Program-made: the position numbers and the translations under genes
The notes under the pieces: generated by a model
Databases searched by the model: none
The model's input: only the letters and a program-made list of their open reading frames with translations
What the model was told of the DNA's origin: nothing
In this document: piece after piece, positions 24,096 through 31,088 of the stretch
How the letters are laid out: each line of letters opens with the position of its first letter
Numbering within the stretch: position 1 is the stretch's first letter
Source of the DNA: Peltaster fructicola
Lineage: Eukaryota; Ascomycota; Dothideomycetes
Assembly (NCBI GenBank): GCA_001592805.2
Contig: CP051140.1
Location: 2,791,501-2,855,500 of the forward strand
DNA length: 64,000 nucleotides
Direction of reading: 5' to 3'

Positions 24096-24487
24096 GGGAG
24101 GCCTCGAATGCTTATCACGATTGGTGGTTCTTTGTTGGCACAGCATGGCGTTCTGGATAAATAGACACTCATCACGTCTTGCATCGGATTAGCATGATTT
24201 TACGAGGATATGAGAACAAGACAACATCAACGCATCAGATCGACTCGATTCTACGTCTCGTGCTCGCCGTGACTCTGCAGTACCCACAGCCAAGCATCAG
24301 ACGCAAACGCATTGACGCGTTCGAAAAATGACGTCGAGTGACTGACGGTACCACGCACGGACAACAGCTCACGCGACAATTAGAAGCTCCAAAGAGAGCT
24401 TCCCATCTTCCTCTTCACTGTACTGACGCTTGTTCGATTGCACGCACACACTACATACACGCTATCCAAGACCGCAACACCGCCAAC
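24096..24487. other. Intergenic region before RTC3
   Basis: 3' UTR of the disordered-protein gene and the promoter of RTC3. Nothing further is seen. Confidence 0.5.
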
Positions 24488-24926
24488 ATGCGAGGAGACC
24501 ATGCAATCACCAAAGTCCACTACCATGGCAACGACGACGACTTCATTGTGTACGCCGACAGTGCTCAAGCCGTCCAAGACTGGAAGAAAGACAGCAGCAT
24601 TCCACTAGCTCAAGTCGTCTCAGGGTTCAAGATCTTCGTCTCACACAAGTAGGTTGATCAGCAGGATACCACATGCACATACTGAGCTGTTTCCAGGCAT
24701 GGTAATCAAGGTGTGCACGACGGTGCTTCCAAGAGCCAACTTGAGGGAGAGTTCGGTACTAGCAACGAAGACGAAGTGATCAAGAAGATTCTGGAGTCAG
24801 GATCTATCATCGCAGGCGAGGTAGGCTACTTTCATCCAGCAGCAGGAGACAATACTGACCAATCCCTAGAACAGCGCTCGTGGAGGCGATCGCAACATCT
24901 CCCAGGGAGGTAGCGTTGCTCACTAG
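24488..24926 (+). CDS. RTC3: SBDS N-domain-like protein Rtc3
   Basis: Small stand-alone homologue of the N-terminal (FYSH) domain of the Shwachman-Bodian-Diamond protein. In yeast, Rtc3 is linked to RNA metabolism and stress. Three exons (24488-24648, 24697-24820, 24870-24926) with 48- and 49-nt introns give 113 aa, against 111 in yeast. Matching features are the start TKVHYHGNDDDFIVYADSA-like strand, LAQVVSGFKIFVSHK, the central GASKSQLEGEFGTSNEDEVI and the Gly/Asn/Ser-rich end. Both introns have GTAGG donors, a less usual choice here, yet they keep every conserved segment in phase. Confidence 0.92.
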
Positions 24927-25480: not shown

Positions 25481-28400
25481 ATGACGACGGAAGAGAAGCT
25501 GCCACAGTCCGACAAGACCATCAATGGCGTGCCTGCTTTAGCTGTACAGCAAGCAGAGGCAGCCGCCGCTGCTGCAGCAGAGGATGACGATGGGACACAT
25601 TGGGCGAGGACGCGAGTGTCAATGGATAGTCTAAGAACTTCAGTCTATCAGGATAGTATCAACAGTGACACCACTATCCCAGCAGCAGAAGATCCTCTAT
25701 CGGAAGAGCAACATGATACATCAGATGTACCACCACCAGCATACGGCTCTGAATACGGCGAGATCGAGCAAGAGCAGAATGGCTTGGAGACTAAAGCATA
25801 CGTTGTTGAAGACGGCAGAATCGACATATCGATTGATCAGCATACCAAAGCCATCGCGGAATTGCTAGGCCCAGCTCTGCGACATGAAAGAGAGATCGCC
25901 GAAGAGGAGGAACCACCACCGCCCGCATACATTCCTCCTTCCCTAGGTGGAATCGATGGCGTGCCACCACCGCCGATGAACGTCGTGATACAGGTTGTAG
26001 GATCACGAGGAGATGTGCAGCCATTCGTTGCACTGGGCCTTGTCCTCAAGCAGACATATGGCCATCGAGTACGATTGGCAACACACCTGACATTCAAGGA
26101 GTTCGTAACCTCAAATGGTCTCGAGTTCTTCAACATAGGTGGCGATCCCGCCAAACTGATGGCTTTCATGGTCAAGAATCCTGGACTAATGCCAGACATG
26201 AGTGCAATAGAGAGCGGCGATATTGGTCACAGACGAGATGAGGTCAAAGAGATGCTTCGAGGATGTTGGCGCTCCTGCTATGAAGCCGGAGACGGCACTG
26301 GTCCTAAGGAGACTGACGCATCTATCCGAGGTTGGTCATCGGATCCGACCACACTCTCTGAGGATGAGCTCAATCGACCGTTCATCGCGGACGCCATCAT
26401 TGCGAATCCACCCAGTTTCGCACACATACATGTGGCGGAGAAGTTGGGAATACCATTGCACATCATGTTTACTATGCCATACTCACCCACGCAGGCCTTT
26501 CCACATCCTTTGGCCAACATCAAGTCGTCCAACGCCGATCCAAACATCACGAACTACCTGTCCTACTCACTTGTCGAGATGATGACCTGGCAAGGCCTTG
26601 GAGATGTCATCAACAGCTTTCGAAGCGCGACACTAGCACTTGACGAGATCACGACATGGTCACATCAGATCCTTGGTCGATTGAAGATCCCTCACACATA
26701 TTGCTGGTCGCCAGCCCTGATACCGAAACCCAGCGACTGGCGGAGACATATCAACATAGCAGGCTTCTACTTCTTAGACACGAGCACGGCATACACTCCT
26801 GAAGCAGATCTGAAAGCATTCCTCGATGACGGCCCTCCACCTGTGTACATTGGCTTTGGCTCAATCGTCCTGGATGATCCTAATGCCATGACTCAACTCA
26901 TTTTCAATGCTGTTCGTCGGAGCGGACAGCGAGCATTAGTATCGAAAGGTTGGGGTGGTATGGGAGCCGATGAGCTGGGACGACCACGTGATGTCTTCAT
27001 GCTGGGCAATTGTCCGCATGACTGGCTCTTCCAGCGTGTCTCTTGTGTGGTTCACCATGGCGGCGCAGGAACAACGGCAGCTGGCATTCGAGCTGGTCGA
27101 CCGACTGCGATCGTGCCGTTCTTCGGTGATCAGCCGTTCTGGGGAGCCATGGTTGCCAAGGCAGGAGCTGGACCGGAGCCCATCCCACATAAACAGCTCA
27201 CCTCTCAGAACCTTGCCGCGGCCATTGACTTCTGTCTACAACCACAAAGTCAAGAACGAGCGCAGGAGCTTGCGGACAGCTTGGCTAGCGAGAAGGGCTC
27301 AGATAGAGGCGCCCAGCTATTCCATCAGTTCCTCGGAACCGACGACTTGAGATGCTCCCTAGCACCATCGCGTACAGCAGTCTGGCGATACAAGAAGACG
27401 AAGATCCATCTTTGCGCCTTAGCAGCTTGTACTCTAGCAAATGCTGGCATACTCGACTTCAAGGATCTCAAACTATTCAGACCAAGAGAGTATGAGACTG
27501 ACACTGGGCCAGTTGATCCCATTACTGGCGGTGCTGGAGCTATCATCGGTACTGTAGGAGCAGTGATGGGGGGTGTGATGAATTTACCACTGGACAAGTA
27601 CAAACAACAGCAAAAGAGATCACAGCGAAAAGCAGGCAAAGCCAAAGCAGAGCGCTCTACGAGTGAGGCTGAGGCTGGTACCCAGACCATGGACACGACA
27701 ATGCAGGACGTAACACAGTCACGTACAGCATCGATGAACAGTGGTCAGAGTACCCCAGCATCAAGTCGAAGCGGGTCTACTTTCAATGTTGAGGAGAGCT
27801 TAGCACGACTTGGAACGCCGCTCAATCGCACAAATACCGACAGCGAGAAGCTTGGCCACACTGAGGCGGCTAGCAGACCGAAACCTTCCACGAGATCCTC
27901 AAGCTCTAGCGTCTTCGACCCCAAGCAACACTTTGAGACAGCAGCGTCCACTGGTAAGGGCATTTTCAAGATCATCGAAGCTGGACTCAAGTCACCTATG
28001 GACTTCACAGATGGCGTCGCTCGTGGCTTCCATAACGCACCCAAACTGTACGGAGACGACACTGTACGCAAGAGTGCCAAAGTGACCGGCATACGATCTG
28101 GTATCAAAGCGGCCAGCCGAGGCTTTGGTCTTGGTATGTATGATGGTATCACTGGCCTGGTAACACAACCAATGCGTGGCCTGCAGAAGGAGGGCGCCGC
28201 TGGCTTCATATCAGGCATCGGCAAAGGAGTAGGCGGATTGGTCTTGAAGCCTGGTGCTGCCGTGTTCGGCATTCCCTCACAAGTGATGAAGGGTATCTAC
28301 AGAGAGATGCACAATGTTCTCGGGTCCAGTGTGCAGAACTACATCATTGCTTCTCGCACAGCACAAGGTTACGAGGAGTGGAACGCAAGCATGCCCACGG

Positions 28401-29209
28401 AGCGAGACGACATCATCAAGAGGTTCTTACGACTCCAACGAGATGCGGTGTCAAGTCCAGCCGCCGAACCAGCAAGACAGGAGACATTGTTCGAGCAACC
28501 CGAAGCGAACCCAATGCCAGGCGCTTGGCATCAACTTGAGACAGGCACAATATCGGGTCCTGTTCATCAGCCACTCGAACGGAGTGTCAGCGACACAGCA
28601 GTTGCGAGCACAAAGCCCAGCGTCAATAACACAGCCGCTGCGAGCACTGATGCCAGCATTGAAAGCCTGCACCTACGTCACGCAGACACAGAAGAGGACG
28701 ATGCAGACCTAGAAGAAGCAATCCGACTCAGCTCGCAGGAAATTCATCGAGCACAATCGGCTGATGATGCAGAAATACGGCGTGCAATTCAGGCATCGAT
28801 GGCCGAGCCTCGAGACGAAGACATGGACCGAGCATTGGGGGAGAGCATGCGATCCCAATCGAGTGGACAGCGCGATGCTCTATCTCACAATCGCCCGCAA
28901 GCGACCAGACGAGAACCTAGTCTTCGTTCGATTGGCTTCATGCCTCCCCACACACGTTCGATGCAACAGCGTGAGCCGCCTCCTGCATACGAGGAGAGCA
29001 CAACTCCACAGGGACATCGACCGGATGGCAAGACAACTGACGAGAGAAGCGAGGAGCAGATTGTCATGGATTATGTCAAGAAGCAGAGTCTGCTGGAGCA
29101 GCAACATCGTCAAGGACGTGGCGACCCGGCTGCAGGCTCCTCAAGCTCTGCTGTTGAAGATGAAGAATTGAGAAAGGCAATCGAGGCCAGTCTGAAGGAC
29201 AGCAGATGA
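25481..29209 (+). CDS. Sterol-glucosyltransferase-like GT1/GT28 protein with VPS13/ATG2-like segment, PPxY and UIM motifs
   Basis: Single-exon protein of 1242 aa. Residues about 165-620 are a UDP-glucosyltransferase fold of the sterol 3-beta-glucosyltransferase type: VVGSRGDVQPFVALG near 172, GFGSI near 458 and the donor-binding HHGGAGTTAAGIRAGRP near 524. Unlike Atg26 it has no PH or GRAM domain before the enzyme part. Residues about 826-940 (SPMDFTDGVARGFHNAP, GFISGIGKGVGGLVLKPGAA) resemble the C-terminal lipid-contact region of VPS13/ATG2 proteins. PPAY motifs lie at 85-88, 147-150 and 1167-1170. Four ubiquitin-interacting-motif matches lie near 1073-1088, 1095-1110, 1112-1126 and 1226-1242. 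Likely membrane-associated glycolipid or sterol glucosylation under ubiquitin control. The family is seen; the regulation is inferred. Confidence 0.9.
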   Translation: MTTEEKLPQSDKTINGVPALAVQQAEAAAAAAAEDDDGTHWARTRVSMDSLRTSVYQDSINSDTTIPAAEDPLSEEQHDTSDVPPPAYGSEYGEIEQEQNGLETKAYVVEDGRIDISIDQHTKAIAELLGPALRHEREIAEEEEPPPPAYIPPSLGGIDGVPPPPMNVVIQVVGSRGDVQPFVALGLVLKQTYGHRVRLATHLTFKEFVTSNGLEFFNIGGDPAKLMAFMVKNPGLMPDMSAIESGDIGHRRDEVKEMLRGCWRSCYEAGDGTGPKETDASIRGWSSDPTTLSEDELNRPFIADAIIANPPSFAHIHVAEKLGIPLHIMFTMPYSPTQAFPHPLANIKSSNADPNITNYLSYSLVEMMTWQGLGDVINSFRSATLALDEITTWSHQILGRLKIPHTYCWSPALIPKPSDWRRHINIAGFYFLDTSTAYTPEADLKAFLDDGPPPVYIGFGSIVLDDPNAMTQLIFNAVRRSGQRALVSKGWGGMGADELGRPRDVFMLGNCPHDWLFQRVSCVVHHGGAGTTAAGIRAGRPTAIVPFFGDQPFWGAMVAKAGAGPEPIPHKQLTSQNLAAAIDFCLQPQSQERAQELADSLASEKGSDRGAQLFHQFLGTDDLRCSLAPSRTAVWRYKKTKIHLCALAACTLANAGILDFKDLKLFRPREYETDTGPVDPITGGAGAIIGTVGAVMGGVMNLPLDKYKQQQKRSQRKAGKAKAERSTSEAEAGTQTMDTTMQDVTQSRTASMNSGQSTPASSRSGSTFNVEESLARLGTPLNRTNTDSEKLGHTEAASRPKPSTRSSSSSVFDPKQHFETAASTGKGIFKIIEAGLKSPMDFTDGVARGFHNAPKLYGDDTVRKSAKVTGIRSGIKAASRGFGLGMYDGITGLVTQPMRGLQKEGAAGFISGIGKGVGGLVLKPGAAVFGIPSQVMKGIYREMHNVLGSSVQNYIIASRTAQGYEEWNASMPTERDDIIKRFLRLQRDAVSSPAAEPARQETLFEQPEANPMPGAWHQLETGTISGPVHQPLERSVSDTAVASTKPSVNNTAAASTDASIESLHLRHADTEEDDADLEEAIRLSSQEIHRAQSADDAEIRRAIQASMAEPRDEDMDRALGESMRSQSSGQRDALSHNRPQATRREPSLRSIGFMPPHTRSMQQREPPPAYEESTTPQGHRPDGKTTDERSEEQIVMDYVKKQSLLEQQHRQGRGDPAAGSSSSAVEDEELRKAIEASLKDSR

Positions 29210-29449: not shown

Positions 29450-30647
29450 TCATATTCTCACTACTCCAAGCTTGTCCATGAATTCGTTAAGCTGGGCAAC
29501 CGTCTCATCTGGAGCAAGCTCAACAATGAAATGACCTTGACCACAACAAACGGCTTGTGTTGTCAGAAGCGACATGTCATCCACGTAGTTCCCCCAGATG
29601 GCCTTCATGTCGAACCCAGAATACGTCACCATGTTCAGCTGCGAGTACTCAACGTGAAGCGGCATCTTGATCTTTCGTCCAGCCTTCTGATCAGCAACCA
29701 TGTCGAGGTAGTCTGGTCCTGCAGCACTCCAGTAGTCCCAGACCGAGGCATTGGTGACAGAGAGCTGATCGAAGAAAGTATGATACACAGCGAGAGCATT
29801 GTCGGAGTAGAATTGCGCCTTCGCTGTAGCGTTAATGCCTGCGCCCTGCTCGTTGAGGAAGTCTGCCATGTTGCCACCTCCGAAGGCCATGATCATGCGC
29901 AGCGAGAACTGATCTTGCACGCGAGGGAGGAAGGCCCAATGGAAATATCCCACACTGCTGTTAGGATTTGCGAAGGAATCATACTCGTCAACAATAGGGA
30001 CGATGTCAGCAAGGAAGACTCCAAGACCATGAACCTCTGGATGGGCGCCTTGTCCCATGTCGACTGCTAGTCTCTGCATTGCTCTAGCACCTCGATCATG
30101 TCCTCCGAGGATGATGTACTTGTCCTTGCCGAAGATCTTGCTGACCAGCTCTACCAAGGCATTGGCATTCGTCCGTTCGTCGTATGCGTCAGGACAGGCC
30201 TCGGAAAGTCCATAACCCGGCCGCTGTGATGATTAGGAAGTAACACAAAGGCTGTAGCCCACTTACGTCGGCTACGATAAGAGGTACTCGGCGTGAAAGC
30301 CTCGCCGTGGTCTTACGCCAGATATAGCTTGATTCAGGATAACCATGTTGTAGCAACAGAATGGGACGGGTTTGGCTTCCGGCGTCCTTGAAGACATCCG
30401 GATCGGTGTGATGCACCGATAGGACTGCACCACAGCTCACACGAATGAAGCTGTGGGTAAGAGTGTCAGAAGCTCCATTCGAGCCATTGAGCTTATAGTA
30501 GGCAAGCTGTGAATTCAGTGGCGCACTGTTCGTCAATGTAGAGCATGAGGGTGATACGAGGCTGGAAGGCGAGAGCTTGTGCTGCTGCTCATGGCACTCG
30601 ATAAGAGAGAAAAGGCAAAGAAGGGCTGTCGTGACAAGGAGATGCAT
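29450..30647 (-). CDS. Secreted alpha/beta hydrolase (epoxide hydrolase / haloacetate dehalogenase-like)
   Basis: Extracellular alpha/beta hydrolase of 384 aa. Exons 30267-30647 and 29450-30223 are joined across a 43-nt intron (GTAAGT...CACAG), which restores LIVADRPGYGLSE. The signal peptide is MHLLVTTALLCLFSLIE. The HGYPESSYIWR oxyanion motif, the Asp nucleophile in GGHDRGARAM and the catalytic His region GQGHFIVELAPDETV place it with Asp-nucleophile enzymes (soluble epoxide hydrolases, fluoroacetate dehalogenases). The cap domain lies between. GHDRGAR favours the dehalogenase-like branch, but reaction and substrate cannot be set by eye. An upstream in-frame Met at 30719 would mask the signal peptide. 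Confidence 0.88.
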
Positions 30648-31088
30648 GATCTTGATGGAATTTGTGGAAATCTCACTGTACCTGCAGTCGAGCGAGCTCA
30701 ATCTCTTTATCATCAGCAAGATGTGCTCTCTATGTCATCGCTCAGCGTATTCCCAGCATGAGACGAGGTCATTGAGTCTCGGTGCTCTCGGCGTGTGCAT
30801 ATAAAACGCCATCACTAGCTCTATTGTGGACCGGCGGCCGTCAGGATTGAGGCTCTCCATGTTGACGTCAACTAGGCTGGAAGCAAGAGACGATGGTACG
30901 AAATCGAAGCTGTGAAGGGGACTGCGCAAGTCATGTCCATCTTGGCATCACAACTGAGGACGTGATTGTAGGGAGATGAAGCACATAAGCTGCTTTCCCT
31001 TGTGCTAAAACGATACTCGTCCTCACCTATGCAAGTCAAGCTACTCTATCCTTAATGCTTGCTGCGAATATGTACATCTGCTATGCCC
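30648..31088. other. Intergenic region between hydrolase and VMA2
   Basis: Promoter of the secreted hydrolase and 3' UTR of VMA2, both on the minus strand. Nothing else is seen. Confidence 0.5.

Follow-up and report, generated by a model that had tools for sequence, protein, structure and literature searches.

A UGT51-like glucosyltransferase of Peltaster fructicola with candidate ubiquitin-ligase docking motifs and ubiquitin-interacting motifs

Domain layout of the locus

We analysed a window of 64,000 nucleotides from the Peltaster fructicola genome (assembly GCA_001592805.2, contig CP051140.1, positions 2,791,501 to 2,855,500 of the forward strand), in which a single open reading frame (ORF) at window positions 25481..29209 encodes a UGT51-like glucosyltransferase. 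Outside its glucosyltransferase (GT) domain the predicted protein carries PPxY motifs, candidate ligands for WW domains of the Nedd4-type ubiquitin ligase Rsp5, together with an ATG_C-like region and a tail of putative ubiquitin-interacting motifs (UIMs), a combination that points to a lipid glucosyltransferase coupled to the ubiquitin system. The features that bear on this reading are as follows (window coordinates).

25481..29209, forward strand: single open frame of 1242 amino acids, in the order PPxY, GT28/UGT, ATG_C-like region, UIM tail
25733..25744, forward strand: PPxY1, PPAY, residues 85-88
25919..25930, forward strand: PPxY2, PPAY, residues 147-150
25988..27301, forward strand: UGT51-like glucosyltransferase domain, residues 170-607 (phmmer and Foldseek)
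26837..26848, forward strand: fourth PPxY, PPVY, residues 453-456, part of the enzyme fold
28079..28312, forward strand: VPS13/ATG2-type ATG_C-like region, residues 867-944, helical in the structure model (phmmer, BLASTP)
28700..28741, forward strand: UIM1, residues 1074-1087, on a low-confidence helix (1073-1088), with a weak alignment to ataxin-3 UIM1 (E 0.01)
28766..28807, forward strand: UIM2, residues 1096-1109, on a low-confidence helix (1093-1108), 22 residues from UIM1
28814..28855, forward strand: third UIM of the Peltaster copy, residues 1112-1125, on a low-confidence helix (1113-1128)
28979..28990, forward strand: PPxY3, PPAY, residues 1167-1170
29159..29200, forward strand: C-terminal UIM, residues 1227-1240, on a helix (1226-1239)

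Conservation was followed in three protein sets. The first family set comprised the best 120 of 3153 matches listed, query included, and is referred to here as the closest relatives. A second search used the tail region of a family member from Hypomontagnella as query and listed 113 new proteins, 86 of which were full-length (more than 1000 amino acids and containing GSRGD); matches of less than 800 amino acids in this search start in the last part of the GT domain, and we regarded them as truncated gene models and excluded them from full-length counts. The sister set held the best 120 of 3193 matches to a paralogue on contig C4 of the same genome (18,987,130 bases searched, 5 contigs), that paralogue included, with a usable tail in 117 of the 120. 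A strict UIM was defined as [LIMV]xxAxxxS with at least two acidic residues among the five preceding positions. Chance expectation was taken from 20,000 shuffles, with the composition of residues 985-1242 retained for tail tests. An anchored tail alignment was begun with 206 proteins, 40 of which were dropped where the anchor failed, leaving 110 from the first set and 56 from the second.

The glucosyltransferase and ATG_C-like core

The GT domain matches yeast UGT51 in phmmer searches (5xvm, 1.2e-71; 5gl5, 1.4e-71), and Foldseek returned 5gl5 as the top solved structure for the model, with a template modelling (TM) score of 0.85 by target length. We placed the UGT51 active-site residues tabulated in PMC10381798 by hand on the UGT51 alignment, the chain numbering being offset from that table by a constant 720, and found that seven of the eight correspond (G177, D178, S461, H526, T531, D550 and Q551). 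The eighth, Ser847, is Asn309 here, a substitution also present in several UGT51-like enzymes of Clonostachys rosea according to the same table's source (PMC10381798, in part). The motifs GSRGD, HHGG[AS]GTT and FFGDQ are each present in 120 of 120 relatives. By its catalytic domain and active-site pattern the predicted protein is a UGT51-like GT-B enzyme, and it probably glucosylates sterols or other lipids.

Residues 867-944, downstream of the GT domain, match VPS13A (1.3e-10) and VPS13C (2.3e-10) by phmmer, and also the genome's own VPS13 on contig C3 (6.6e-10); BLASTP against the last gave 42% over 66 amino acids (7e-05, database size set to 6 million). The Pfam ATG_C model found no match in the 1242-amino-acid protein. 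On the strength of these homologies the region is VPS13/ATG2-related, a piece predicted to target membranes. The original prediction had likened the protein to arrestins or endocytic adaptors; it had missed the ATG_C-like region, which offers a more specific membrane link than that likeness.

PPxY motifs

A pattern search recovered the three PPAY motifs at residues 85-88, 147-150 and 1167-1170, just where they had been predicted. Among the closest relatives PPxY1 is nearly fixed (P85 in 116/120, P86 in 120/120, Y88 in 118/120), as is PPxY2 (P147 in 117/120, P148 in 109/120, Y150 in 118/120); PPxY3 is kept less often (P1167 in 70/120, P1168 in 78/120, Y1170 in 82/120). In the structure model PPxY1 lies in coil at a low-confidence edge (block predicted local distance difference test, pLDDT, of 47), PPxY2 likewise in coil and PPxY3 in a disordered stretch with pLDDT of about 33. 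PPxY1 and PPxY2, conserved and with unstructured surroundings, therefore pass as candidate WW ligands, PPxY3 being the less conserved. The fourth motif, PPVY 453-456, was rejected as a docking site because it opens a confident strand of the glucosyltransferase fold and is near-invariant, its Pro, Pro and Tyr being retained in 118, 120 and 120 of the 120 relatives.

Two PPxY motifs within residues 1-165 arose in 34 of the 20,000 shuffles and one PPxY in the tail in 226, so PPxY3 taken alone is weak by count. An N-terminal PPxY is present in all 86 full-length members of the second set, 44 of which carry a single PPxY outside the GT domain. N-terminal PPxY and strict UIM occur together in 116/120 proteins of the first set and 80/86 of the second.

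The UIM array

Acid-preceded [LIMV]xxAxxxS cores start at residues 1077, 1099, 1115 and 1230, which puts their central alanines at 1080, 1102, 1118 and 1233, exactly the four positions near which UIMs had been proposed. Without the acid requirement the same core is also found at 305, 474 and 831, all within folded regions. None of the 20,000 shuffles produced four strict UIMs, the number observed, and only 4 produced three. The closest relatives average 3.76 strict UIMs (0.12 when shuffled) and the 86 full-length second-set members 1.79 (0.09 when shuffled). Using the Pfam UIM model PF02809 we obtained matches (E ≤ 0.01) in 28 of 38 family members scanned, taken from the 120 and not including the window's own copy, and in 0 of 40 sister-clade members scanned. 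A PF02809 search of the genome matched nowhere, controls included, and so carries no weight.

Column by column, the UIM stretches are better conserved than the remaining tail (mean entropy 1.61 vs 2.38 bits in the anchored alignment). Among the 110 first-set tails the numbers that keep the Ala and the Ser of each UIM, in order and written Ala/Ser, are 101/108, 99/91, 79/107 (Ala1118 and Ser1122) and 82/86. The spacing of UIM1 and UIM2 is 22 residues in 107/110 of these tails and in 42/56 of the second set, which suggests a tandem unit; the remaining spacings are widely variable in the 110 and fairly constant in the 56. The model draws one separate helix for each UIM. The family consensus has an additional UIM of LRxAMxAS type between UIM2 and the third UIM, and the Peltaster copy is without it.

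Helices of this kind need not read ubiquitin. The UIMs, perhaps with a further motif beside PPxY1, might instead bind Atg8, in which case the protein would be a selective-autophagy adaptor that takes lipid glucosylation to the forming autophagosome, in parallel to the pexophagy role of Atg26. The further motif is the following.

25754..25765, forward strand: [YF]xx[ILV] with acidic neighbours, residues 92-95, a weak candidate Atg8-interacting motif

Its pattern is found in 171 of the 196 relatives that keep PPxYG, out of 206 examined. As part of a review (PMC8666691) sets out, the UIM docking site of ATG8 can accept UIM helices that have an Ala/Ser core; ATG2, too, has the ATG_C region (PMC7613979), and Atg26-type fungal sterol glucosyltransferases act in pexophagy in several species, as parts of PMC9698648 report. 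Against this, the UIMs are preceded by acidic residues, spaced in tandem, weakly matched to ataxin-3 and accompanied by PPxY motifs, features that fit ubiquitin equally well or better; the [YF]xx[ILV] stretch extends into a small strand in the model, and the block that follows it is, by eye, common to the sister clade too. We judge Atg8 binding in place of ubiquitin binding unlikely.

A motif-poor sister paralogue

The sister paralogue, AMS68_006270 on contig C4 (L007:482-3775), is 1239 amino acids long in the named record and 1097 in the open frame. It is 48% identical to the protein described here over residues 98-766 and 39% over residues 782-967, and its ATG_C-like region is known solely through this latter homology to that of the Peltaster UIM paralogue. 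It combines a GT domain with the homologous ATG_C-like region but lacks both a strict UIM and an N-terminal PPxY; its one PPxY outside the GT domain is within the ATG_C-like region. Its set at large is similarly poor in the motifs, with N-terminal PPxY in 0/120, strict UIM in 6/120 and a mean of 0.034 strict UIMs against 0.035 in shuffled sequence (117 usable tails). A C-terminal PPxY does occur in 46/120 of the sister set. We rejected it as a docking site because in all 46 it comes after one and the same block, of LK[NST] type, in the ATG_C-like region.

We built a tree from the GT domain sequences only, by a quick method with support from the Shimodaira-Hasegawa-like approximate likelihood ratio test (SH-aLRT) only; its 91 rows comprised 37 of the first 120, 29 of the 86, 24 of the sister 120 and an Atg26-type gene on contig C1. 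In it a branch with support 90 separates the sister group from the rest. On the other side the N-terminal PPxY is present in 66/66 rows and a strict UIM in 62/66; neither is found in any of the 24 sister rows. The outgroup branch is very long and therefore leaves both a gain of the motifs in one clade and a loss in the other possible. The C1 gene itself lacks any strict UIM, has its one PPxY inside the GT domain and carries a GRAM domain (3.4e-26).

Alternatively, the motifs might have arisen by chance in a proline-rich, acidic, disordered tail. The shuffle count for PPxY3 taken singly would agree with this, as would the low model confidence of most of the tail. Column conservation, the shuffles, the scarcity of the motifs in the sister clade and the prediction of helices where they lie all speak the other way, and we consider this account extremely improbable; in our view the shuffles, the columns and the comparison with the paralogue already rule out a chance origin of PPxY1, of PPxY2 and of the UIM array taken together.

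Among the matches listed, named family members come from Zymoseptoria, Cercospora, Aureobasidium, Cadophora, Fusarium, Talaromyces, Aspergillus and Xylographa, and so presumably span several classes of Pezizomycotina. Neohortaea (P0086/P0341) and Acrodontium (P0004/P0346) have two members each, one from either search set, which suggests further duplication or transfer. Records named for Quercus suber (P0088, P0089 and P0161) fall inside this fungal family and are probably fungal contamination of the plant assembly.

A candidate ubiquitin-coupled lipid glucosyltransferase

The reading that we favour, with roughly even confidence, is that of an Rsp5-coupled, ubiquitin-binding lipid glucosyltransferase acting on membranes to which its ATG_C-like region directs it; binding, substrate and location are all inferred. 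The protein would be an active UGT51-like lipid, probably sterol, glucosyltransferase, a Pezizomycotina paralogue in which a core of GT domain and ATG_C-like region has been joined to ubiquitin-system motifs. The ATG_C-like helices would keep the enzyme on a membrane, for example that of a lipid droplet, autophagosome or endosome, and the PPxY motifs in flexible stretches would dock the WW domains of Rsp5. The UIM array would bind ubiquitin, whether attached to the enzyme by coupled monoubiquitination or to other proteins that Rsp5 has modified on that membrane, and ubiquitin binding would thereby control the site or duration of lipid glucosylation. For other proteins, sections of PMC4276913 describe both the docking of PPxY to the WW3 domain of Rsp5 and coupled monoubiquitination that depends on UIMs, and ubiquitination of epsin frees it from membranes according to part of PMC6723200. 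Conservation and the motif-poor sister give good support, and predicted helices weaker support, to the original prediction that the motifs are genuine and connect the enzyme with the ubiquitin system. Free drift of motif positions between relatives would have counted against that prediction; PPxY1 and PPxY2 hardly drift among the 120, PPxY3 and single UIMs vary more, and the second set frequently lacks PPxY2 and PPxY3 and has several UIMs that are for the most part degenerate.

A number of observations weigh against this reading. Binding and activity are predictions from sequence and model, and the acceptor may be other than a sterol. The model of the ATG_C-like region matched no solved structure (Foldseek, best E 0.45), and the sister paralogue had no BLASTP match to VPS13 in the same test as used for residues 867-944. 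A C-terminal PPxY is found in only 26/86 members of the second set, which together with the 44 members with a single non-GT motif means that PPxY2 and PPxY3 are often missing there. Pfam UIM models score the Peltaster copy at 13.0 and 14.8 bits (the latter UIM_2, at the C-terminal UIM), below the cut-off of 21, and 6 of the 86 full-length second-set members have no strict UIM. In the 56 second-set tails the corresponding Ala/Ser numbers for the four UIMs are 8/40, 36/1, 9/51 and 32/39, so that these tails have lost much of the array; the 22-residue spacing persists in these tails despite the loss of most UIM1 Ala and UIM2 Ser, so spacing alone is no proof of UIM function. Similarity of the UIM1-UIM2 pair to the tandem UIM structure of ataxin-3, 2klz, is weak (E 0.01 with the tail alone, 0.094 with the whole protein). 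The first three UIM helices have block pLDDT values of 46-59 and the fourth 69, with longer linkers at about 30.

The motifs could also serve the enzyme itself. On this account it would be a metabolic or detoxifying UGT whose PPxY motifs and UIMs govern only its own Rsp5-dependent ubiquitination, sorting or turnover, so that ubiquitin would set its level and not the site of glucosylation. UIM-dependent coupled monoubiquitination is established for UIM adaptors (parts of PMC4276913), and two UGT51-like UGTs of C. rosea have been tied by knockout to accumulation of the glucoside of 15-acetyl-deoxynivalenol (15-acetyl-DON) in the portion of PMC10381798 that concerns them, so sterol is not the sole possible acceptor. 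Self-regulation nevertheless seems doubtful to us: an array that typically has 3-5 UIMs, two of them at a fixed spacing, appears to exceed the needs of self-modification, and the ATG_C-like region speaks for a membrane role.

A stronger form of the ubiquitin-coupled reading, which we regard as rather improbable, is that of a reader-writer enzyme, in which the UIMs would read ubiquitin on an organelle surface, docked Rsp5 would add more and a lipid-glucoside mark would be written on the same membrane. If this were true, a signal carried by ubiquitin on proteins would be converted into one carried by glycolipid in the bilayer, as might serve lipophagy or pexophagy.

Relation to known systems

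UGT51/Atg26 has the same GT-B catalytic domain and, save for the Ser to Asn change, the same active-site pattern. It differs in the GRAM and PH domains before its GT domain, for neither of which the 1242-amino-acid protein gave a Pfam match at E ≤ 1, and the Peltaster protein adds the ATG_C-like region, PPxY motifs and UIMs. That ATG_C occurs in fungal sterol glucosyltransferases is already known (PMC7613979, citing Grille 2010), and with its GT domain followed by an ATG_C-like region the Peltaster protein fits that subgroup; PPxY motifs and UIMs go unmentioned in that source's passages on the subgroup, and the term UIM appears nowhere in its text, whereas here one of two paralogue clades has both. 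We found no sterol glucosyltransferase joined with a UIM or PPxY in the open-licence PMC literature, and one may be in print elsewhere. One database protein name, from Septoria linicola among the matches listed, includes the words 'ubiquitin interacting'.

Spartin (SPG20) uses a PPxY motif and to our knowledge has no glucosyltransferase and no UIM array. It resides on lipid droplets, to which it recruits AIP4 (ITCH), a Nedd4-family ligase that it also activates (part of PMC2887783), and the analogy is a functional one only. Yeast epsin Ent1 and other UIM endocytic adaptors likewise combine a membrane-binding region with UIMs, the ubiquitin receptor itself being ubiquitinated (sections of PMC6723200 and PMC4276913); unlike the Peltaster protein they are not enzymes and bind membranes through ENTH, not ATG_C. 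VPS13D and plant VPS13, most of them with an ATG_C-type region, also carry ubiquitin-linked domains such as UBA (as parts of PMC7613979 describe); they differ in being lipid-transfer bridges rather than glucosyltransferases and in having UBA rather than UIM.

A filamentous-fungal paralogue with candidate ligase- and ubiquitin-docking parts, in one genome with a sister without them, provides a ready comparison for the steering of a lipid-modifying enzyme by ubiquitin, and the activity of the enzyme described here may be so steered.

Candidate ligase gene, other conserved stretches and neighbouring genes

On contig C2 (1957600-1959493, minus strand) the genome encodes a HECT domain closely preceded by three WW domains in a span of less than 600 bases, a WW-WW-WW-HECT layout that we take to be that of Rsp5. 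The HECT match falls in two pieces, one with two in-frame TGA codons, and this piece may contain an intron.

Two further stretches of the protein are conserved.

25529..25564, forward strand: conserved N-terminal stretch VPxxMVQQAEAA, residues 17-28 (QAxAx[AV] within the first 60 residues in 87/120)
29036..29113, forward strand: almost invariant tail helix EExIVxYVKKQSLxE, residues 1186-1211 (helix, block pLDDT 73-77)

Residues 1188-1210 of the tail helix are the most conserved element of the tail (mean entropy 0.94 bits vs 2.38 for the rest), with Ser1203 invariant. The helix is UIM-like with Val at the Ala position and is not a strict UIM, and no second copy of it was found in the genome.

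The downstream gene, at window positions 29450-30719 on the minus strand, consists of two open pieces, neither of which had a Pfam match at E ≤ 0.001; by eye it resembles an alpha/beta hydrolase with an intron. Upstream, an ORF at window positions 24338-24652 encodes an SBDS N-terminal domain (2.3e-11) and is presumably Rtc3-like.

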